In this document: positions 11,135 through 63,605 of the stretch, in pieces | How positions within the stretch are numbered: position 1 is the stretch's first letter | Layout: every line of letters begins with the position of its first letter | Origin: Chlorella sorokiniana | Taxonomy: Eukaryota > Chlorophyta > Trebouxiophyceae > Chlorellales > Chlorellaceae | Length of the DNA: 64,000 nucleotides | NCBI GenBank assembly: GCA_025917655.1 | Contig: CP084615.1 | Coordinates: forward strand, 124,001 to 188,000 | Direction: 5' to 3' | Made by a program: the position numbers and the translations under genes | Notes under the pieces: generated by a model | Databases searched by the model: none | Told to the model about the DNA's origin: nothing | The model's input: only the letters and a program-made list of their open reading frames with translations

Positions 11135-12012
11135 ATGGAAGTCGACAGCGACGTCACGGTGCCCAGCAAACGCAGGCCCGAGGAGGGCGCCGAGACCGGT
11201 CCGCCAGGACAGCCGCCAAGCCGCCCTCAAGAGGTCGGTGCGCGCCCTGCAGATTCTGGCACATCGTCCGACAAGCGCCAGCGCACCGCCGAACAGCTGG
11301 CAGCCGGGGGCGGCGGCGGCGACGATGCCGCCAGCTCGCTCCTGCCGCTGCGCCCGCTGACCGAGCAAGCAGCTTCGCGCTTGCAGCGCCTGGGCTCCCC
11401 CGAGCTTGAACAGGAGGAAGAGGCCGAGGCGCTGACGGCATGGCTGCAGGCGCCGCTGCCCATCACGGCCAGGGAGCAGGAGCAGGAGGCAGCGCAGCAC
11501 CGCCTGGTCTGGGACTCTTCTGCCGCCGCCGAGGCCCTTGGCCCAGGCACCGCCGCTCGCCTGGCAGACCAGCTGTACGACCTGAACCTAGCCGCCGACG
11601 GCGTGGGCATTGGCGATGATGCAGGCGGCACGCCCATGGATGCCGACAGCGCCGCGGCGGCCGCCCCGTCGCCGGCCCGGGCTCGCCGCAGGCCGCCGCC
11701 GTCGCCGCGGCAGCCGGCAGCGGCGACCCCCGCAGCGGCAAGGCGAGGCGTCGGGAGCCCACGGCAGGCGCTGATCAGCAGGCTGGCTGAGGCTGACGCG
11801 GCGGCACCCATCCAGCTGCTGCCGCTGGAAGCGCTGGACAAGGAGCCCCTCCTGCACGAGTTCCAGCGGCAGCGGCGGCGGCTGCCCGCGCAGAGCAGAC
11901 AGCCAAGGCGGTGGCGGCGGCGGCGGCGCTGCGGGGGCGGCTGGCGGAGCTGGAGGGCATGGAGGCGGAGGAGGGGGAGGAGGACGAGGTGGTGTTCTTA
12001 CCAGGGCCGTGA
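11135..12012 (+). CDS. hypothetical protein with acidic C-terminus
   Basis: An ORF of about 290 codons starting at the ATG at 11135 (MEVDSDVTVPSKRRPEE). It has a basic patch, an Ala/Glu-rich helical middle (ELEQEEEAEALTAWLQ), an Arg/Pro/Ala-rich segment, then ISRLAEADAAAPIQLLPLE. Near 11865-11880 the frame that reads ...LLHEFQ turns into low-complexity Arg. The next frame gives a far better C-terminus: AEQTAKAVAAAAALRGRL, AELEGMEAEEGEEDEVVF and LPGP, with a stop at 12010. One missing base there would join them. The basic and acidic patches suggest a nuclear protein, possibly a histone- or kinetochore-associated one, but I recognise no domain. Confidence 0.5.
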
Positions 12013-12534: not shown

Positions 12535-15500
12535 TCAGCGCAGTCCGGCCTTGCGGCAGCGCTCCAGCACCGCGGGGCGACCACATACGTGTGCAGCGGC
12601 TGGTCCAGCATGCTGAAAGGCTCCCACGTCGTGTCTTGGTAGCCAACCCACCTGCAGCGGCTCGAGAGTAATATATGGAGCTTGAGAGGGCGGGGAGGGA
12701 AGCGAGTGAGCCAGTTGGCAGGCTGCAATCGAGCAGCAACCAGCGCAAGAGACGGCGAGAAAGTGATCAGAGCTTGGGTGTGGCGACATGGGCGGCACAG
12801 CGCAGCGCAGCGCAGCAGGAGAGGGCAGGCAGGCTGGCGGCCTGGCAACGGCGGCCCCCGCACTTGATCTCCACATCAGGCTGCGGCCGCTGCCCTTCAT
12901 GCCCACAATGCTCTCCACATCATAGACCTCCTCCTCTTCCTCCTGCGGTACGCAGGTGGGCAGTACAGGCAACCAGTCATTCAGTCCGAGGCCTGCCAGC
13001 AGCCCCGGAAAAAGGAAGGGGGGTGGGAGAGGCCATGCGGCCCGCTGATGCACCTGCGGCATAGCCTACCTCGAGCGGCTGGCACTGCTGCTGCAGCGTG
13101 GCTGACTGCCGCTGCCGAGCTTGCTTGACAGACTGCTTGGGGGCCCTGGCAGCCGCTGCAGACGCCTTCTTGGCAGCAGCAGCAACAGCCTTCTCCTGCA
13201 CAGCTTGCCCCAGACTTGCTGCACTCCGCTGACGCCGCTTCCGCAGCCCCGCCGCTGCATCGCTGCCCGCTGCCGGCTTGCCGCCCGTCCCCGACCCCGC
13301 GTGGACCGCTAACTGCGCCGCTGCCGGTGAGCCGGCAGGAACGCGCCCCTCTGCTGCCGCTGCAGACAGGTGTTTGCAGGCATGCCACGGCCTCAGCATG
13401 GCAGCAAAGCTGCACTGGCACACGGCAGCAAGAAGCCGTACGGTACAGCATGGCCCGCTGCATGGCACACGCAGCACCATCACCTACTGCCCGCTGCCTG
13501 GTCCCACCTTGGCCGCCCGCTCGCCGCCAGACAGCACCGCCTGCCGTCGCCGCTTTGCGCCGCTTTGAGACTGGTCCCCAGCCTCTTGGCTGGCCACCTT
13601 CTTGGCTTCCGGCTCGGCTTCTGAAAGGCCAGCCAGGGCCTCTTGTGCTGCGGGGGCCGCCGCCGCCCAAGCTGCTGCACCGGCTGCTGCCCAGCCTCCT
13701 CCCACTCTGCCCCTGGCGTCGGGCCGGCTGCTTCACTGCTGCCCCGTGCAAGTTCCCCTGAACCGCCGCCCGCCGCCCTCTCCTCCGCAGCTTCAGCAGC
13801 CGCAGCCTGCTGAGGCTCGTCCGCCTCCTCCGCCACCGCCTGCTCCCCGGTTCCAGCAGCCTGCTGAGGGTCGCCGCCCTCTGCCGCCGCAGCCTGCTCC
13901 CTCTCAGCCGTGGCCTCCCGCGCTGCCTCCAGCTGCTGCAGGCGGGCCTGCCTGGCACCCTCCGTCTCATAATCAAGTGCCCTGCCCGAGGGGGCATCAG
14001 GCATGAGAGGGTGGGTGACATGATGTGCGTTTGCAGGTAGAGGTGGGGTGGGGTCGGACGGCAAGCGGTCTGTGTAGAGTAGTGGTGATGGTTGGGAAGG
14101 CAAAAGGCCAGAGCGCCAGGCTCGGGACGCGCATCCCTCCTGCCTCACCACCTCGTGGCACCCCAGGGCAGCCCGCTTCAGCCCCTTGGTGCAAGGCGCC
14201 TCAGACCCCAATCCAACGCGCCTTGCCTTGACCTCGCGCCTCCAAACCCTCCCGCCCACCACCCCCACAGCCAGAGAGGGGCGCCCTCCTGGCCCACCTG
14301 AACACGTGCATGACGATGCTGAAACGCACGCCGGGCACGCTGTGCCAGCCTGGCCGCGTCTCCACCACCACAACGTCTCCTGGGAAGAGCTCCTGCGGCA
14401 TGGGCAGTGCAGTGAGCCGGCCCTCATTTCCTCCCTTTATCTCCTTCTTTCTTTCGATGTCAGGCTTGGGGTTGAAAAAGAGCGGAAGAACCGCACACTG
14501 CCGGCGCAGGGCCACCCAGGGGCGCCGGGAGCGGCATGTGCGGCGACGAGCCAAAAGGTCTCCGCAGCACGGGTCTGCATGCGCCATCCGGCCAAGCAGG
14601 CACAGGAGGTAAGCAGGCCGCAGCGTGCAAAGTGTGCACAGCAGGCCTCACGTGGTCGAGCGCGAAGCCGCGCCAGCCGCCGCTGAAGCCGGCGCCGCTC
14701 TTGCGCGGCAGCCACACCATGGGCCACCACTGCAGGCGGCGGGAGGGGCGCCACCCTTCAGCCACGTACGCAGTCAACCCAGCAGGCCTGCCCCATCGAC
14801 GTTAAGCGCTGCCGCAGCTTTGAGTTTGCTGCCGCAGCGCATCCAGGCTGATAACGGCGCCCAAAGAGACAAAGGCAGAAAAGCACAGGCCTGTGCCACG
14901 TTCCCCCACACCCCCACCCAGCTGCACCCCAAGGGGCCCACCGTGCCGCCGCTGTCGTGCTGCTGAGCATACTCTGCCTCGGGCGGCGCCTGCTGCCCCT
15001 CAGGGATGAAGGCTGCAATATTGCACCTGTCATCCACCCCGACCGCCCTGCAGGGGGTGAGGGAGGCATCAGGCAAGCCGGGCAGCATGAGGGCAGCGCT
15101 GTCGTTTGGCGCGAGCCCCGACGGCGAGCCGCGCTGGCAGGGGGCTGCTAGGTGGCCAGGGCTGGCACGCGCCCCACACAGGGAGGCCAGCGCAGGACGC
15201 TCACTCGCGCAGCCCCGCGGCTGCTCCATCCAAAACCCGCCGCTGACCATGGAAGATGAGAGCACCTGCGTGGGCAGGAGCGAGAGGGGATGGGCGGCAG
15301 GCAGCCACACAAGCGGCAGGCCGGGGCAGGGCCGGCACAGGTCCAGGAAGACTGGTTCGCCGCAACTAGAAGCTTGGCCGACCTTGCAGAAAGCCGGGTT
15401 TGGTAGCCCCTCGGCATGCTCCTCCGCTGCTTCCAGGCACCGCTCGCACGCCGCATGGCCCGCCATGCCTTGATCCGGGCGCCAGCCGGCTTTGCGGCTG

Positions 15501-16069
15501 ACATACGCCCTGCCTGTGGCTTGTTCGTGTTTGATGCGGCGCACAATCACGATCCTGCAAAGATTCGCAGCTGGGATGAGCGTCTTGGGCCTGCACGCTC
15601 AGCCTGCGAACCTCGCGCTGGCAGGAAGGGCAGTGCCGAGGAAGGAGCGGCGCTGCGCCTCTGACCTCGACTTGGCCTCTGCCCTTGCCAGCGCCTCCTC
15701 CGCCTTGAAGATGTCCCGCTCGTTGTAGTTGACTTCTTTCTTACCCTCCCTGCGGCACAGTCGCAGCTCAGGCACAGCGCCTGCAGAGCTGCGCCCCGCT
15801 CAGCACCAAGCGGCAAGGCAGGAGCGCCGGCGGAACGACAGGCCCCTGCGCCAGAGTGCTTCTCACCGATTGGAGCGCCTCAATTCTACTTCCACGACCT
15901 CACGGGCACGCTTCTTGCGGGGGAACTGCTGCGAGACCCGCAACAAGGTGCTTGCCTGTTGCTGCACCTCCTTGGCGGCGTCAAGCACACCCAATTCGCG
16001 CATCCGCTTGGCATTCTCGGCAATCCTCATTAGCCGGTCCTGCTCGTACTGACTGAGCGGCTGCGACAT
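12535..16069 (-). CDS. B3 DNA-binding protein with C-terminal chromodomain
   Basis: Exon 1 (15867-16069) reads MSQPLSQYEQDRLMRIAENA, the N-terminal helix typical of plant At5g42700/At3g19184-type B3 proteins. Exon 2 (15666-15749) adds NYNERDIFKAEEALARAEAK. Later exons give YVSRKAGW, then a full B3 domain: NPAFCKVLSSSMVSGGFW, MEQPRGC, MVWLPRKSGAGFSGGWRGF, ALDH, ELFPGDVVVVET and VRFSIVMHVF. A Glu/Ala/Gln-rich probable coiled coil follows (~14000-13490), then a basic segment (RKRRQRSAASLGQ). The final exons hold a chromodomain, EEVYDVESIVGMK and, after an intron, EIKWVGYQDTTWEP. Phases connect the B3 exons to the coiled coil and on to the chromodomain. Three single-base frame breaks need allowance: near 13640-13700, near 12880, and at the G run 12574-12577, where one extra base gives the ending VLERCRKAGLR and a stop at 12535. 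It is predicted to be a nuclear chromatin or transcription factor. Confidence 0.75.
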
Positions 16070-16431: not shown

Positions 16432-19400
16432 TCATGTCTCCATGCCATTTGTGGTGCCGCTGAACTTGAGGCGGACCTTCATGGCTGCAACACGCGGGCA
16501 GAGCACACAGCAGCTTGGCCCCCAACATGCCGTGTAACACGCACAATGGTTGGAAGTGGGGGCAGGAAGCAGGGTGTACGGCAGCCGCACTGCGTCGGTC
16601 TGCAGAGGAGCAGCGCTGGCGCCATCAATTGCACGGCGCGTCAGGCTGCACACGGCGCGTCAAAGGGCGTGCGCTGCCCAACCCACCCGCCACCAGCTTC
16701 CTGTCATTCACGTGGATGATGCTGCCGTCGCCCTCCACCAACTCCGAGATGGGCTGCACCAGTAAGGGAGGATGGGAGCGTGCGTGAAAGTCAGGGCCAT
16801 TGGAGCTGGACAAGGCGTTGCTCGAAGTGCAGTGCAGAGGATGGCACTCGCCCGTCAACCCGCACAAGCAGCGCCAGCGCACGGGTCGGCTGCAAGCTGC
16901 ACCGGTGCCGCTCCTGCGCTGTTAGTGCACCATTGCCGCCCGCCCCACACAGCCCCGGCCGCCGACGCCGACGCACCTTGCTCAGGTTTGGCCGCGTCTG
17001 CGCCTCCAGCGCCCCCGCATGAAGAGGTTGGTGCTGCCATAGCTCACGCTGGCGCGCTGCGCAATGAGAGGAGGAAGCCGAGTATGTGTAAAGCCCAATG
17101 TCCCATGTGGGCGTGGAGTTGGGACGGTACGCATTGTGGGTAGCAGGGAAGGAGGTGGGCTGAGGGTTGTGGCGCAAAGTGCAGGCAGGGCAATGTTGAA
17201 GGCACTAGATGAGCGGGGGCCAGGGCCGCGCGGCGTCTGCGCATGCGCTGACAAAGCGACAGCGGCACGGGGGCCGAATGCAGCAGAAAGGCAGGGGCTG
17301 GCGAACAGGAACACCTTGTGCCGCTCCCGGGCGGCTGGACGCAGCAAAGGCGCACCTGAGGTGCTTGCCCAGGGCCGGGTCAGCCACCAGCTGGTCTATC
17401 AACTGTGCCAAGGGGTGGGGCAGTCATGGAGGCGGTGAGAGCAGGTGTGGCGCGCTGTGGCAAACGGCAGCACACTTTGCGGACCTTCCTGACCAACCTC
17501 TATCAGACTCTTGCCCAAGCCAAGCCCAGGATTGATGCTACAACCCTATCCCCACCCACCCAAACGCTTGAGAAGGCGGCCAACCCTCGGCTGCCGGCTT
17601 TCCCGAGGCCCAGTTGACCCCCGGTTCTGGGGGCCAGCCCACCTGCTGCAGGCTGGCCGAGGGGTCCACCTCCAGCAGCACCCCGGCGAGCAGATGGGGC
17701 ACTGCTCGTCGCGCTCGTAAGGGGTGGTCAGCGTGTAGACGCCGTGGGTGCCCACGTACCTGCGGCAAAAACAGAAGAACGTGTTGACAAAGCATGCAAG
17801 TGCCAATGCAACGGAGGGCACCCCCACCTGCTGCACCCCCACCCAAAAACGCAAAAGCTCCCTTGACCCAGTCTCCTCAACTCCCCAGCCCGCCGGCCTC
17901 TCCCACCCACCCACCCCAATTCCCCAACTTCTCACATCATGTAGTTGTTCAGGCCGGAGGAGCACATGGTGACCATCTTCAGGGCCTCCAGCGCGCACTG
18001 GGCAGCCACTGCGGGCGCATGGGGGCAAGGTGGCAGCCGGGTTGCGCATCAGGGAAGGCGGGGGCAGCAACAAACCGCAGAGGTGGCGGCACGGGGCAGG
18101 CGGCGGTGGAGGGGATGAAGAGGGGTTTGAGAGGGCAGCCCAGCAGCAGGAAGCAAAGAAGATTGCGGCGGAACCGCAGCGGTCGAATTGCAGGCCCACC
18201 GATGGCGTTGGTGGATGCAATGGCGGGGATGATGTTCTTCACAACGCCCTGCGTCAGCTGGTACGTCACGCCCTGCATGGCGGCGGGGGCAGGGGACAGG
18301 TGAGGCTGTCAGCTGGGCGGCAGGGGTACCAGGGGGCTGCGGCAGGGCAAGTTGGACGGTGCGGTGCATGACGGCAGGGCTGTGTCGGTGTAAAAACACA
18401 GGCGCAGCTGGCTGCCAGCTAAGGAAGCCGCCCTCCATGCGCTGAGCCACCTGGCAGCACAGCGACGTGCGCGGCGCCGCCCTGCAGGGTGCCTCACCTG
18501 GATGCCGAACTCGGTTGCCCGGGCCAGAGCCTTGTCATGCACCCACCGCATGTGCTCTTCGCAGTCTGCAGTGGCAGCGGGTGCTGAGGCAGTGAACAGG
18601 GAGTACAACATGTACTGGCAGGCGGCATTGCGAGCAGGCAAATGAAGAGGCAAATGCAACAGGCGGCACAGGCAGGGCGGCGACCAGCGCTGCGTTTGGC
18701 AGCGACAGCGCTGCCATGCAGCAACCCCTGCACCCCCTCCCCACCCACCCACCTGCGTCAAAGGTGTCGTCTAGGCGCTCCTTGGGCCAAAGGATTATTT
18801 TGGCATACTCGATGCAGTGGGCAGGAGAGCTGCAGGGGTGGGTGGGCCGCGGATGCGGAGGGCAGGGAATCAAACCAGCGGAAAGGGACACTGCACACAC
18901 CTGAATGATGAGGCAGAAGCTGGGGCATCCCACGCATGATGAAAGATGGGGGCAGTAACAAGTTACACAAAGGAAGAGAAGAGATGCCGGAGGCTGGGTG
19001 CTTATTAGTGAGAGAGGCGTGGGAGGCACACCCTGAAAGCGGGCGCCGCCGTTTGCAGGCACGGCTGCCAGCTCACCGGGGGTCTCAGCCAGCGTGCACA
19101 GTGGGAACTTTGTTTGGGGCGGGAACAGCCACAGTGTGCACTCGAAGCAGGGCGTGACGCCGGGGATCAGCACCCTGCGTGATCAGAAGCACAAGGGCAC
19201 ACACTGATGAGTGAAGTGTTGCTCCTGGCTGGGTGGGCTGCCACCCCTTCCCCAGGGTCCCTCCCAAGGCATAACATGCCTGCAACAGCCCAGCAGGGCA
19301 GCCGGGGCAGCCGTGTGGCCCCCATGCATTCACCCGCAGCTGGCGCCCAAGCAAGCGGCGACGGCTGCAGCCCTGTGAGGCCGTGGGGGCGGCCGGGCCA

Positions 19401-21204
19401 GGCAGCGTCCCGATCACCTGGCGTGTCCCTTGAAGCCCTCTGTGCCGCCGTCCACCATCGGCTTCACTGTCGACAGATCCGGCTGCCCATCCTCGTCGTA
19501 CTCTGCAGCACACCAAAACGACCTCACGGCAGGGCAGCGGGTCGGCGCCAGCAGGCAGGCCGGAAGGCAGCGGCCAGAAGGCGGCGCTGAGCGCGATCGC
19601 CCAGTGTTGCACCACTCGCTGCCCGCAGCCTGGTCCCCCTTCCCACTAACACCCTCTCCGCCCCCAAAGCATGGAGTCTGAACCGGGGCAGGAACCTTCT
19701 CGTGCTTACCCCCCCCACCCCCACACCCCACACACACACCCCACACACACACCCCACACACACACCCCACACAGACACACACACACACACACGCACGCAC
19801 GACACACACAGCCCACGCGCGCGGCCGCCCACCCAGGAAGGAGCAGGCCACGGAGTTCATGTAGCGGCGCGCCTCCAGGGAGTCCAGGCCCAGCACCACC
19901 ACGTGGAACTGCTCGTAAAAGTCGAGGGGCTTGTCCTGCGACAGATGGCAGTGAGGCGTGTGTGCGTGTGTTTGTGTGAGTGTGTGTTGAGGAGCGGAGC
20001 AGGGTGCTGGGCGGCTCTGGCTGGCCGGGAGCAAGCATGCGGGCCAGGCCTGCCTGGCAGCGGCGGCAGCGGCAGCGGCGCGCTTGGCCTGCTGCGGAGC
20101 ACAGCTGCAGCGCACCCCGTGTTCCCGGCTGCACTGTTGTTCACGCCCCACTCCAAACCCTGCCAGCTCACGCCACATCCACGCAGCAGCCAGGCATCAC
20201 CCCGCCATTGCCCCCTGTCCCACCGCAGCCTTGCACACAGCCCCGTCCCAGCATACCCCGCCAGCACTTCTGCCACTCAAGCCCAGCCCACCTGGATCAT
20301 GCAGTGGTGCGGCGTGACGGTGACGCCCGGGATACGTTCCATGATGCGCTTTGCTGCCACCTCCGCCTTGCTCTGCCCCACATCTTGCATCCTGCCGGGT
20401 GCCAGGGCCGGCACTGGGCTGGGTGAGAGCGATGCGAAGCCTGGCGGCTCGTGGCGGCACTGCCGCTGCATGCATGGCCACCCTGCATGTCCTGCAGCCC
20501 GGGGCTGCCGCTCGCCGCAGCACACACCCAGGCATCCGGCGGTTGGGCTGCACCATGACGGCAGCCGCAGGCACGCCAGCCTGAACAGCATCACCGTCGA
20601 GCCACAGGAACAAAAGACTGAGCCGACCTGAAGAGGAACTGGCGGTTCAAGTTCGACACGTCTATGATGTCCATGTCTATGACGTCGATGTGGCCAAAGC
20701 CGCTGAGGGCCAAGTCCTTGAGCAGCTCGCAGCCCAGCCCGCCAGCTCCCACCACCAGCACCCTGAGGCAGGGCAAGCGGGCGCGCGGCGGCCAACGTGG
20801 GCATGCGCAGGCGGCCGGCCAGCAGGCCCCAGCGCCGGTACGGCATGCGGGCTGCTGCGGCTGGCATGAGCGGGGCGAAGCACGAGCGCTGGGCACAGGG
20901 GGCGTTGGAAGCGGCGCAGGTGACGGCGGAGTGGGCGGCCCTGCCGCGGAGCCCAAGCTGCGACGCGGCAGGGACGCCCACCAGCTTCATACATTTCAGC
21001 AGTTCATCGCTACGGCTTCCAGCATTCCAAACGCCACGCACAGAGACAGCGGACGGCATGCGCCGAGTGATCAGGTGCTTACCGGCTGTCATCCTGCAAG
21101 AACTCCCTGATCTCTGGTCCCGGTTCAAAGCCCGGTCCCACCACGTTGCCTTCCCGGGTGAGCAGGTAGTCCAAATCCCGCCATCGCCCCTCCAAGTCGG
21201 CCAT
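16432..21204 (-). CDS. UBA3: NEDD8-activating enzyme E1 catalytic subunit
   Basis: UBA3/ECR1 adenylates NEDD8/RUB and passes it to its E2 together with the AXR1/NAE1 subunit. Exon 1 is 21083-21204 ([15 protein letters not shown]...[12 protein letters not shown]). The next exon, ~20632-20763, has the nucleotide-binding [20 protein letters not shown] and [19 protein letters not shown]. Further exons carry [76 protein letters not shown] (catalytic Cys), [26 protein letters not shown] and [16 protein letters not shown], a C-terminal ubiquitin-like part ([11 protein letters not shown]), then MKVRLKFSG to the stop at 16432. At the C run 17681-17684 the frame breaks by one base; one more base joins CPICSPG to [13 protein letters not shown]. 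About 14 exons. Assignment is firm. Confidence 0.93.
19700..19812. repeat. CA/CACCC-rich simple repeat in a UBA3 intron
   Basis: A run of CACA and CACACCC units inside the UBA3 intron just downstream (transcript sense) of the exon coding for [16 protein letters not shown]. It yields false long His/Thr ORFs. Confidence 0.85.

Positions 21205-52443: not shown

Positions 52444-63605
<11,162 letters not shown>

Follow-up and report, generated by a model that had tools for sequence, protein, structure and literature searches.

A candidate Chlorella sorokiniana gene combining a B3 domain with a C-terminal chromodomain

The locus and its gene model

The window, a 64,000-nucleotide stretch of DNA from Chlorella sorokiniana (C5:124001-188000), belongs to a eukaryotic assembly of 38.8 Mb in 15 contigs, and its G+C content, taken in 2-kb steps, ranges from 61 to 76%. 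Positions given below without a contig label are those of the window. Three-frame translation of the minus strand yields a gene model that runs from an ATG at 16069 to a TGA at 12537-12535 and consists of 11 exons (Table 1), all ten introns of which begin with GT and end with AG. The exons total 1712 nt; with four missing bases added, they come to 1716 nt, corresponding to 572 codons and 571 residues.

The gene is situated between UBA3 and a convergent gene, with about 4 kb free between these neighbours. UBA3, the catalytic subunit of the NEDD8-activating E1, is encoded upstream on the minus strand at about 16680-20760, and its joined exons match 1tt5_B at E 1.3e-117. A single copy of UBA3 was found in the genome, where three other matches are 36, 51, and 56% identical. 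The convergent gene lies on the plus strand, from an ATG at 11135 to its end at 12012.

The sequence-only reading of this stretch had described exons for a B3 domain and for a chromodomain on one strand, separated by a region rich in Glu, Ala, and Gln. Both observations hold. The exons of the B3 domain lie at 15554-14298 and are followed, in order and on the same strand, by the chromodomain at 12942-12864 and 12651-12535, and between the two domains Glu, Ala, and Gln account for 58% of residues 1-106 of exon 8. Basic clusters were recognized by eye in exons 1, 8, and 9. A start of exon 9 at 13362 was replaced by 13312, the acceptor of which ranks 7th of 146 AG sites and is phase-compatible without a fifth frame break.

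Table 1. Exons of the candidate B3/chromodomain gene, in window positions
Feature	Position	Strand	Content and evidence
Exon 1	15867..16069	-	Start codon, N-terminal helix motif YEQDRLMRIAENAKRMRELG, basic cluster PRKKRAR; helix motif also in another gene of the genome
Exon 2	15666..15749	-	Gene model
Exon 3	15383..15554	-	B3 domain begins at exon end (NPAFCK); Pfam
Exon 4	15205..15265	-	B3 domain; lacks one base relative to the exon 5 frame
Exon 5	14942..15047	-	B3 domain; Pfam
Exon 6	14652..14729	-	B3 domain, SGGWRGFALDH; Pfam, solved chains
Exon 7	14298..14392	-	B3 domain, ELFPGDVVVVE; Pfam, solved chains
Exon 8	13508..13981	-	Glu/Ala/Gln-rich linker and basic cluster; frame break at about 13690-13640; codon scores, donor 13507
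Exon 9 (least certain)	13070..13312	-	Ala/Lys/Arg-rich linker and basic cluster; fits the phase, no codon support
Exon 10	12864..12942	-	First half of chromodomain (VYDVESIV ... DVEIK), frame break between these motifs; Pfam, PDB, codon scores
Exon 11	12535..12651	-	Second half of chromodomain (WVGYQDTTWEP), frame break at about 12577, TGA at 12537-12535; acceptor 12652

The B3 domain and the chromodomain

Against PF02362, the B3 piece scores 27.9 bits (E 2.3e-6; curated cut-off, 30.1), over positions 1-84 of the 101 in the profile. Among solved chains, VRN1 (4i1k) is the only B3 protein matched at E values up to 1 (E 0.015 and 0.011); two CD8 chains that also matched the piece (E 0.66 and 0.79) were regarded as chance. 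Although it scores below the Pfam cut-off, the B3 domain of the minus-strand gene is very probably real.

The N-terminal helix encoded by exon 1 presumably resembles that of particular land-plant B3 proteins. The same helix (YE..R..RIAEN) recurs at C5:413694, in a plus-strand gene that begins at about position 2207 of C5:411500-419500. There it is followed by an FYR-like region, the FYRN match of which is weak (E 0.082, below the cut-off). Because the helix precedes an FYR-like region in that gene, it is not specific to B3 proteins in this genome. The gene at C5:413694 was rejected as a paralogue, as it has only the N-terminal helix in common with the B3 gene.

Against PF00385, the chromodomain piece reaches 19.1 bits (E 0.0012; curated cut-off, 25.1; profile positions 1-40 of 53), and its best match in the PDB is Drosophila HP1 (E 4.8e-5). 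A chromodomain profile built from nine segments, five of them from PDB matches and four from this genome, gave 33.6 bits for the whole piece, 30.4 for the core, and 27.7 when residues flanking the exon-10 break were masked, against a best score of 12.6 bits for shuffled versions of the core (20,000 shuffles, 16,756 of them reported). Each half is weak when taken alone. When the same profile was run over all six frames of the window (2808 overlapping segments), each half scored 10.1 bits (E of about 0.08), ranking directly behind the two matches of a CHD-type gene (29.1 and 12.3 bits, at about 62.5-62.8 kb); combined only with DVEIK, exon 11 was not matched in a Pfam scan. As with the B3 domain, the chromodomain is very probably real, although below the Pfam cut-off.

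Aromatic residues occupy all three cage positions, since the Tyr in VYDVES is aligned with HP1, as are the Trp and the Tyr in KWVGY; we take these Tyr, Trp, and Tyr positions to be the ones that form the methyl-lysine cage in HP1. Compared with HP1, the loop preceding TWEP lacks two residues, and the C-terminal helix is unmatched in both Pfam and the PDB. By length alone, without alignment, this short loop presumably equals that of cpSRP43, chains of which are among the weaker PDB matches of the chromodomain piece (E 0.026-0.1). These two features would fit a single protein in which the chromodomain serves protein-protein contact, like that of cpSRP43, and does not read histones. Such a role is improbable, however, given that HP1 is the best match, that the three cage positions are kept, and that ankyrin repeats, a feature of cpSRP43, had no match when the gene was scanned with Pfam.

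Frame breaks and the join between the domains

Exons 4, 8, 10, and 11 each contain a frame break that amounts to one missing base. The junction of exons 4 and 5 is out of phase as sequenced, and since the joined exons are out of frame from exon 5 on, the break was placed in exon 4. Its position within the exon is not fixed, because the addition of one base at the single placement tried lowered the Pfam score of the B3 domain from 27.9 to 25.1 bits. In exon 10 the break spans too short a distance to be an intron; as sequenced, the two halves of the chromodomain occupy different frames. Without the donor at 13507, exon 8 would stay open until it met a TGA (13482-13480) or, in the later of its frames, a TAG (13486-13484). 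Each part, taken in its own frame, is free of internal stops throughout the exon model. The sequence-only reading, which had claimed compatible splice phases, had overlooked the four one-base breaks, of which two fall within the chromodomain, and the misfit at the 4-5 junction.

Both domains can be part of one protein only if all four breaks are assembly errors. UBA3 carries two breaks of the same sign, one missing base each, at about 17690 and 17015, and the convergent gene has one apparent missing base at about 11830-11890, bringing the same-sign breaks within 11.8-17.7 kb to about seven. Elsewhere in the genome, 63 HSP70 and 64 Cpn60 matches were inspected by eye; one clear break (C3:1270967) was seen, as well as three internal stops in two of the Cpn60 matches. 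That sole clear break among the 127 chaperone matches lies in an HSP70-family exon at C3:1270819-1271083, in which the profile match shifts frame over a few bases.

Local assembly error is favoured as the source of the breaks because UBA3, a single-copy gene expected to be functional, carries breaks of the same sign. A locally poor consensus is thus likely, though not certain, to be the cause in preference to gene decay. Were the four breaks real, the gene would be decaying and no full protein would be made. The density of breaks, four in 1.7 kb of exons compared with one clear break in 127 chaperone matches, speaks for such decay, but the same-sign breaks in UBA3 and in the convergent gene, the stop-free exons, and the preserved coding signal make it rather improbable. 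The poor quality of the stretch also raises the possibility that a misassembly joined the chromodomain exons to a B3 gene. Phases, spacing, and strand all fit a continuous gene, however, and no second place with the chromodomain exons was found in the genome, so that a chimera of this kind is very improbable.

Codon scores were obtained with a model whose training set comprised 73 of the 127 chaperone matches, exons 1-7 of the B3 gene, and ten pieces of UBA3 exons, the 3' part of the B3 gene being left out. This model replaced an earlier one, self-trained on the window, that was too weak. For each segment, 2000 overlapping draws from 3470 nt of introns served as the null. Four of the five downstream segments scored are coding-like, each in the expected minus frame: no intron draw reached the score of 13981-13660 or that of 12942-12863, 0.6% reached that of 13660-13503, and 2% that of 12650-12535. 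The remaining segment, 13362-13066 (exon 9), is without codon support, 21% of the intron draws being as good.

The training set for the splice scores, 17 donors plus 16 acceptors from the B3/chromodomain gene and UBA3, contains no donor below 6.5 bits and no acceptor below 5.9 bits. The donor at 13507 has 9.1 bits (2nd of 65 GT sites), the acceptor at 12652 has 11.1 bits (1st of 146 AG sites), and the acceptor at 12943, which opens exon 10, has 6.2 bits (4th). On the other hand, three of the six downstream sites, namely donor 13069 (5.9 bits), acceptor 13313 (4.8 bits), and donor 12863 (3.9 bits), score below all training sites. The TGTAA polyadenylation signal does not occur on the minus strand between 17000 and 10000 and is hence uninformative.

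The sequence-only reading had also stated that no start codon intervenes between the domains. As worded, this is incorrect, since ATG codons are present at 13480, 13399, and 13062, the last of them in the frame of exon 10. With these starts, the locus could be divided into a B3 gene that ends at about 13.48 kb, where the frames of exon 8 meet the two stops noted above, and a small, separate chromodomain gene, likewise on the minus strand, with its start between 13.48 and 13.06 kb, for example at ATG 13062. ATG 13062, the lack of codon support for exon 9, and the low-scoring splice sites make two genes likelier and one gene less likely. Several features argue against the division: the strong donor at 13507 lies just ahead of the exon 8 stops; exon 10 is opened by the acceptor at 12943, and the codon score of 13065-12943, between ATG 13062 and this exon, is at intron level; and no more than about 540 bases would be available for the 3' end of one gene and the promoter and leader of the next. 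Two genes are accordingly unlikely, and the model in Table 1 is a candidate structure for the transcript of what is probably a single gene carrying both domains. The earlier proposal of one protein with both domains is therefore retained in part: exon 8 has coding signal along its length, and exons 10 and 11 have it as well, but the proposal is weakened by the four breaks, by exon 9, and by half of the downstream splice sites.

Relatives, proposed function, and known systems

No second gene with both domains was found in the genome itself, and searches of the genome with the B3 exons and the N-terminal exons revealed no second copy of either. Two further B3-like genes are located at C6:259050 (E 0.017) and C4:183200 (E 0.090). 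When extra pieces of these genes were searched, one gene matched B3 at E 0.049 and the other matched nothing. No chromodomain was detected near them, in 8.5 kb at C6:259050 and 9.0 kb at C4:183200 (best scores, 7.2 and 4.0 bits). Weak genome matches also occur at C2:628851, C3:2793611, and C5:588766; a fragment at C7:273316, which sits in long coiled-coil-like frames, was regarded as chance. The genome has 13 chromodomain matches, 12 of which were inspected by eye; we take these to be CHD-type, retroelement-like, eEF3-like, cpSRP43-like, or too short to name. Within the window, the minus strand at about 62118-63262 encodes two CHD-type chromodomains with a PHD-like Cys/His pattern ahead of them, and this gene presumably resembles a CHD3/PICKLE remodeller.

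In viral contigs, the B3 piece gave 7 pattern matches and the chromodomain piece 15, and in contigs of prokaryote genomes the B3 piece gave 27; none was confirmed, and algae are not expected in either collection. In the literature searched, which largely consists of sources outside subscription journals and was available in part, no protein with both a B3 domain and a chromodomain was found, and the word chromodomain is absent from the available text of a survey of B3 proteins (PMC2688026). Bona fide B3 domains are reported, in the available part of another study, from Viridiplantae only (PMC11685440). The combination had been called unusual from the outset. This description suits the B3/chromodomain pair in the literature covered, but it is less apt for the general arrangement, as VAL/HSI2 is described in the accessible text as already pairing B3 with a zf-CW domain (PMC6599366).

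The explanation that we prefer, to which a probability of roughly 0.58 is assigned, is that of a one-gene B3 factor with an HP1-type reader. One minus-strand gene would encode a nuclear protein composed of the helix motif, the B3 domain, a linker that is first Glu/Ala/Gln-rich and then basic, and a C-terminal HP1-type chromodomain. The B3 domain would place the protein at a DNA sequence, and the chromodomain would keep it bound to nucleosomes that carry methylation at a histone lysine, H3K9 and H3K27 being the most likely candidates. Binding would be best where DNA sequence and histone mark coincide, and the protein may help to keep such loci silent. Sequence specificity and the reading of histone methylation are both putative activities of the algal protein, proposed from its domains. 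If one protein does have both domains, it would offer a directly testable example of a plant-type transcription factor whose target sites are selected jointly by DNA sequence and histone mark. A more tentative and at present doubtful extension is that the gene represents an undescribed green-algal class of B3 factors, in which a C-terminal HP1-type chromodomain ties DNA sequence to histone methylation in a lineage where no LHP1 has been found.

Among known systems, REM/VRN1-type B3 proteins share the B3 signature with the algal gene, VRN1 being the sole solved B3 that it matched, whereas the algal gene adds a chromodomain. Chlorophyte sequences have been placed in a REM clade, according to the available part of PMC11685440. 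Auxin response factors (ARFs) are similar in that they combine B3 with Royal-family (Tudor/chromodomain-like) folds. In the same partly available source, the ARF B3 domain is described as lying inside a Tudor-like fold for which histone binding is no longer the role (PMC11685440). In contrast, the chromodomain of the algal gene is separate and C-terminal, and neither ARF-specific nor PB1 domains were matched in the Pfam scan of the gene. The likeness to HP1 and LHP1 consists in the best PDB match, HP1, and in the preserved cage positions; the algal chromodomain has a shorter loop, and the Pfam scan gave no match to a chromo shadow domain. LHP1 is said, in the available text of PMC6599366, not to have been found among chlorophytes, and the algal gene, if it makes one protein with both domains, would bear on how these organisms read repressive histone methylation.

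The VAL/HSI2 repressors would resemble the algal protein in their working principle, in that B3 and a histone reader are present in one protein. VAL proteins contain zf-CW and often PHD, are without a chromodomain, and have been reported from alga to angiosperm (PMC6599366, available part). Pfam scanning of pieces that cover all 11 exons of the algal gene gave no match to CW or PHD, and the gene is most likely analogous to VAL/HSI2 and not a member of that family. If the one-gene explanation is true, the algal protein would bear on the joining of B3 families to chromatin readers, alongside VAL with zf-CW and ARF with Tudor-like folds.
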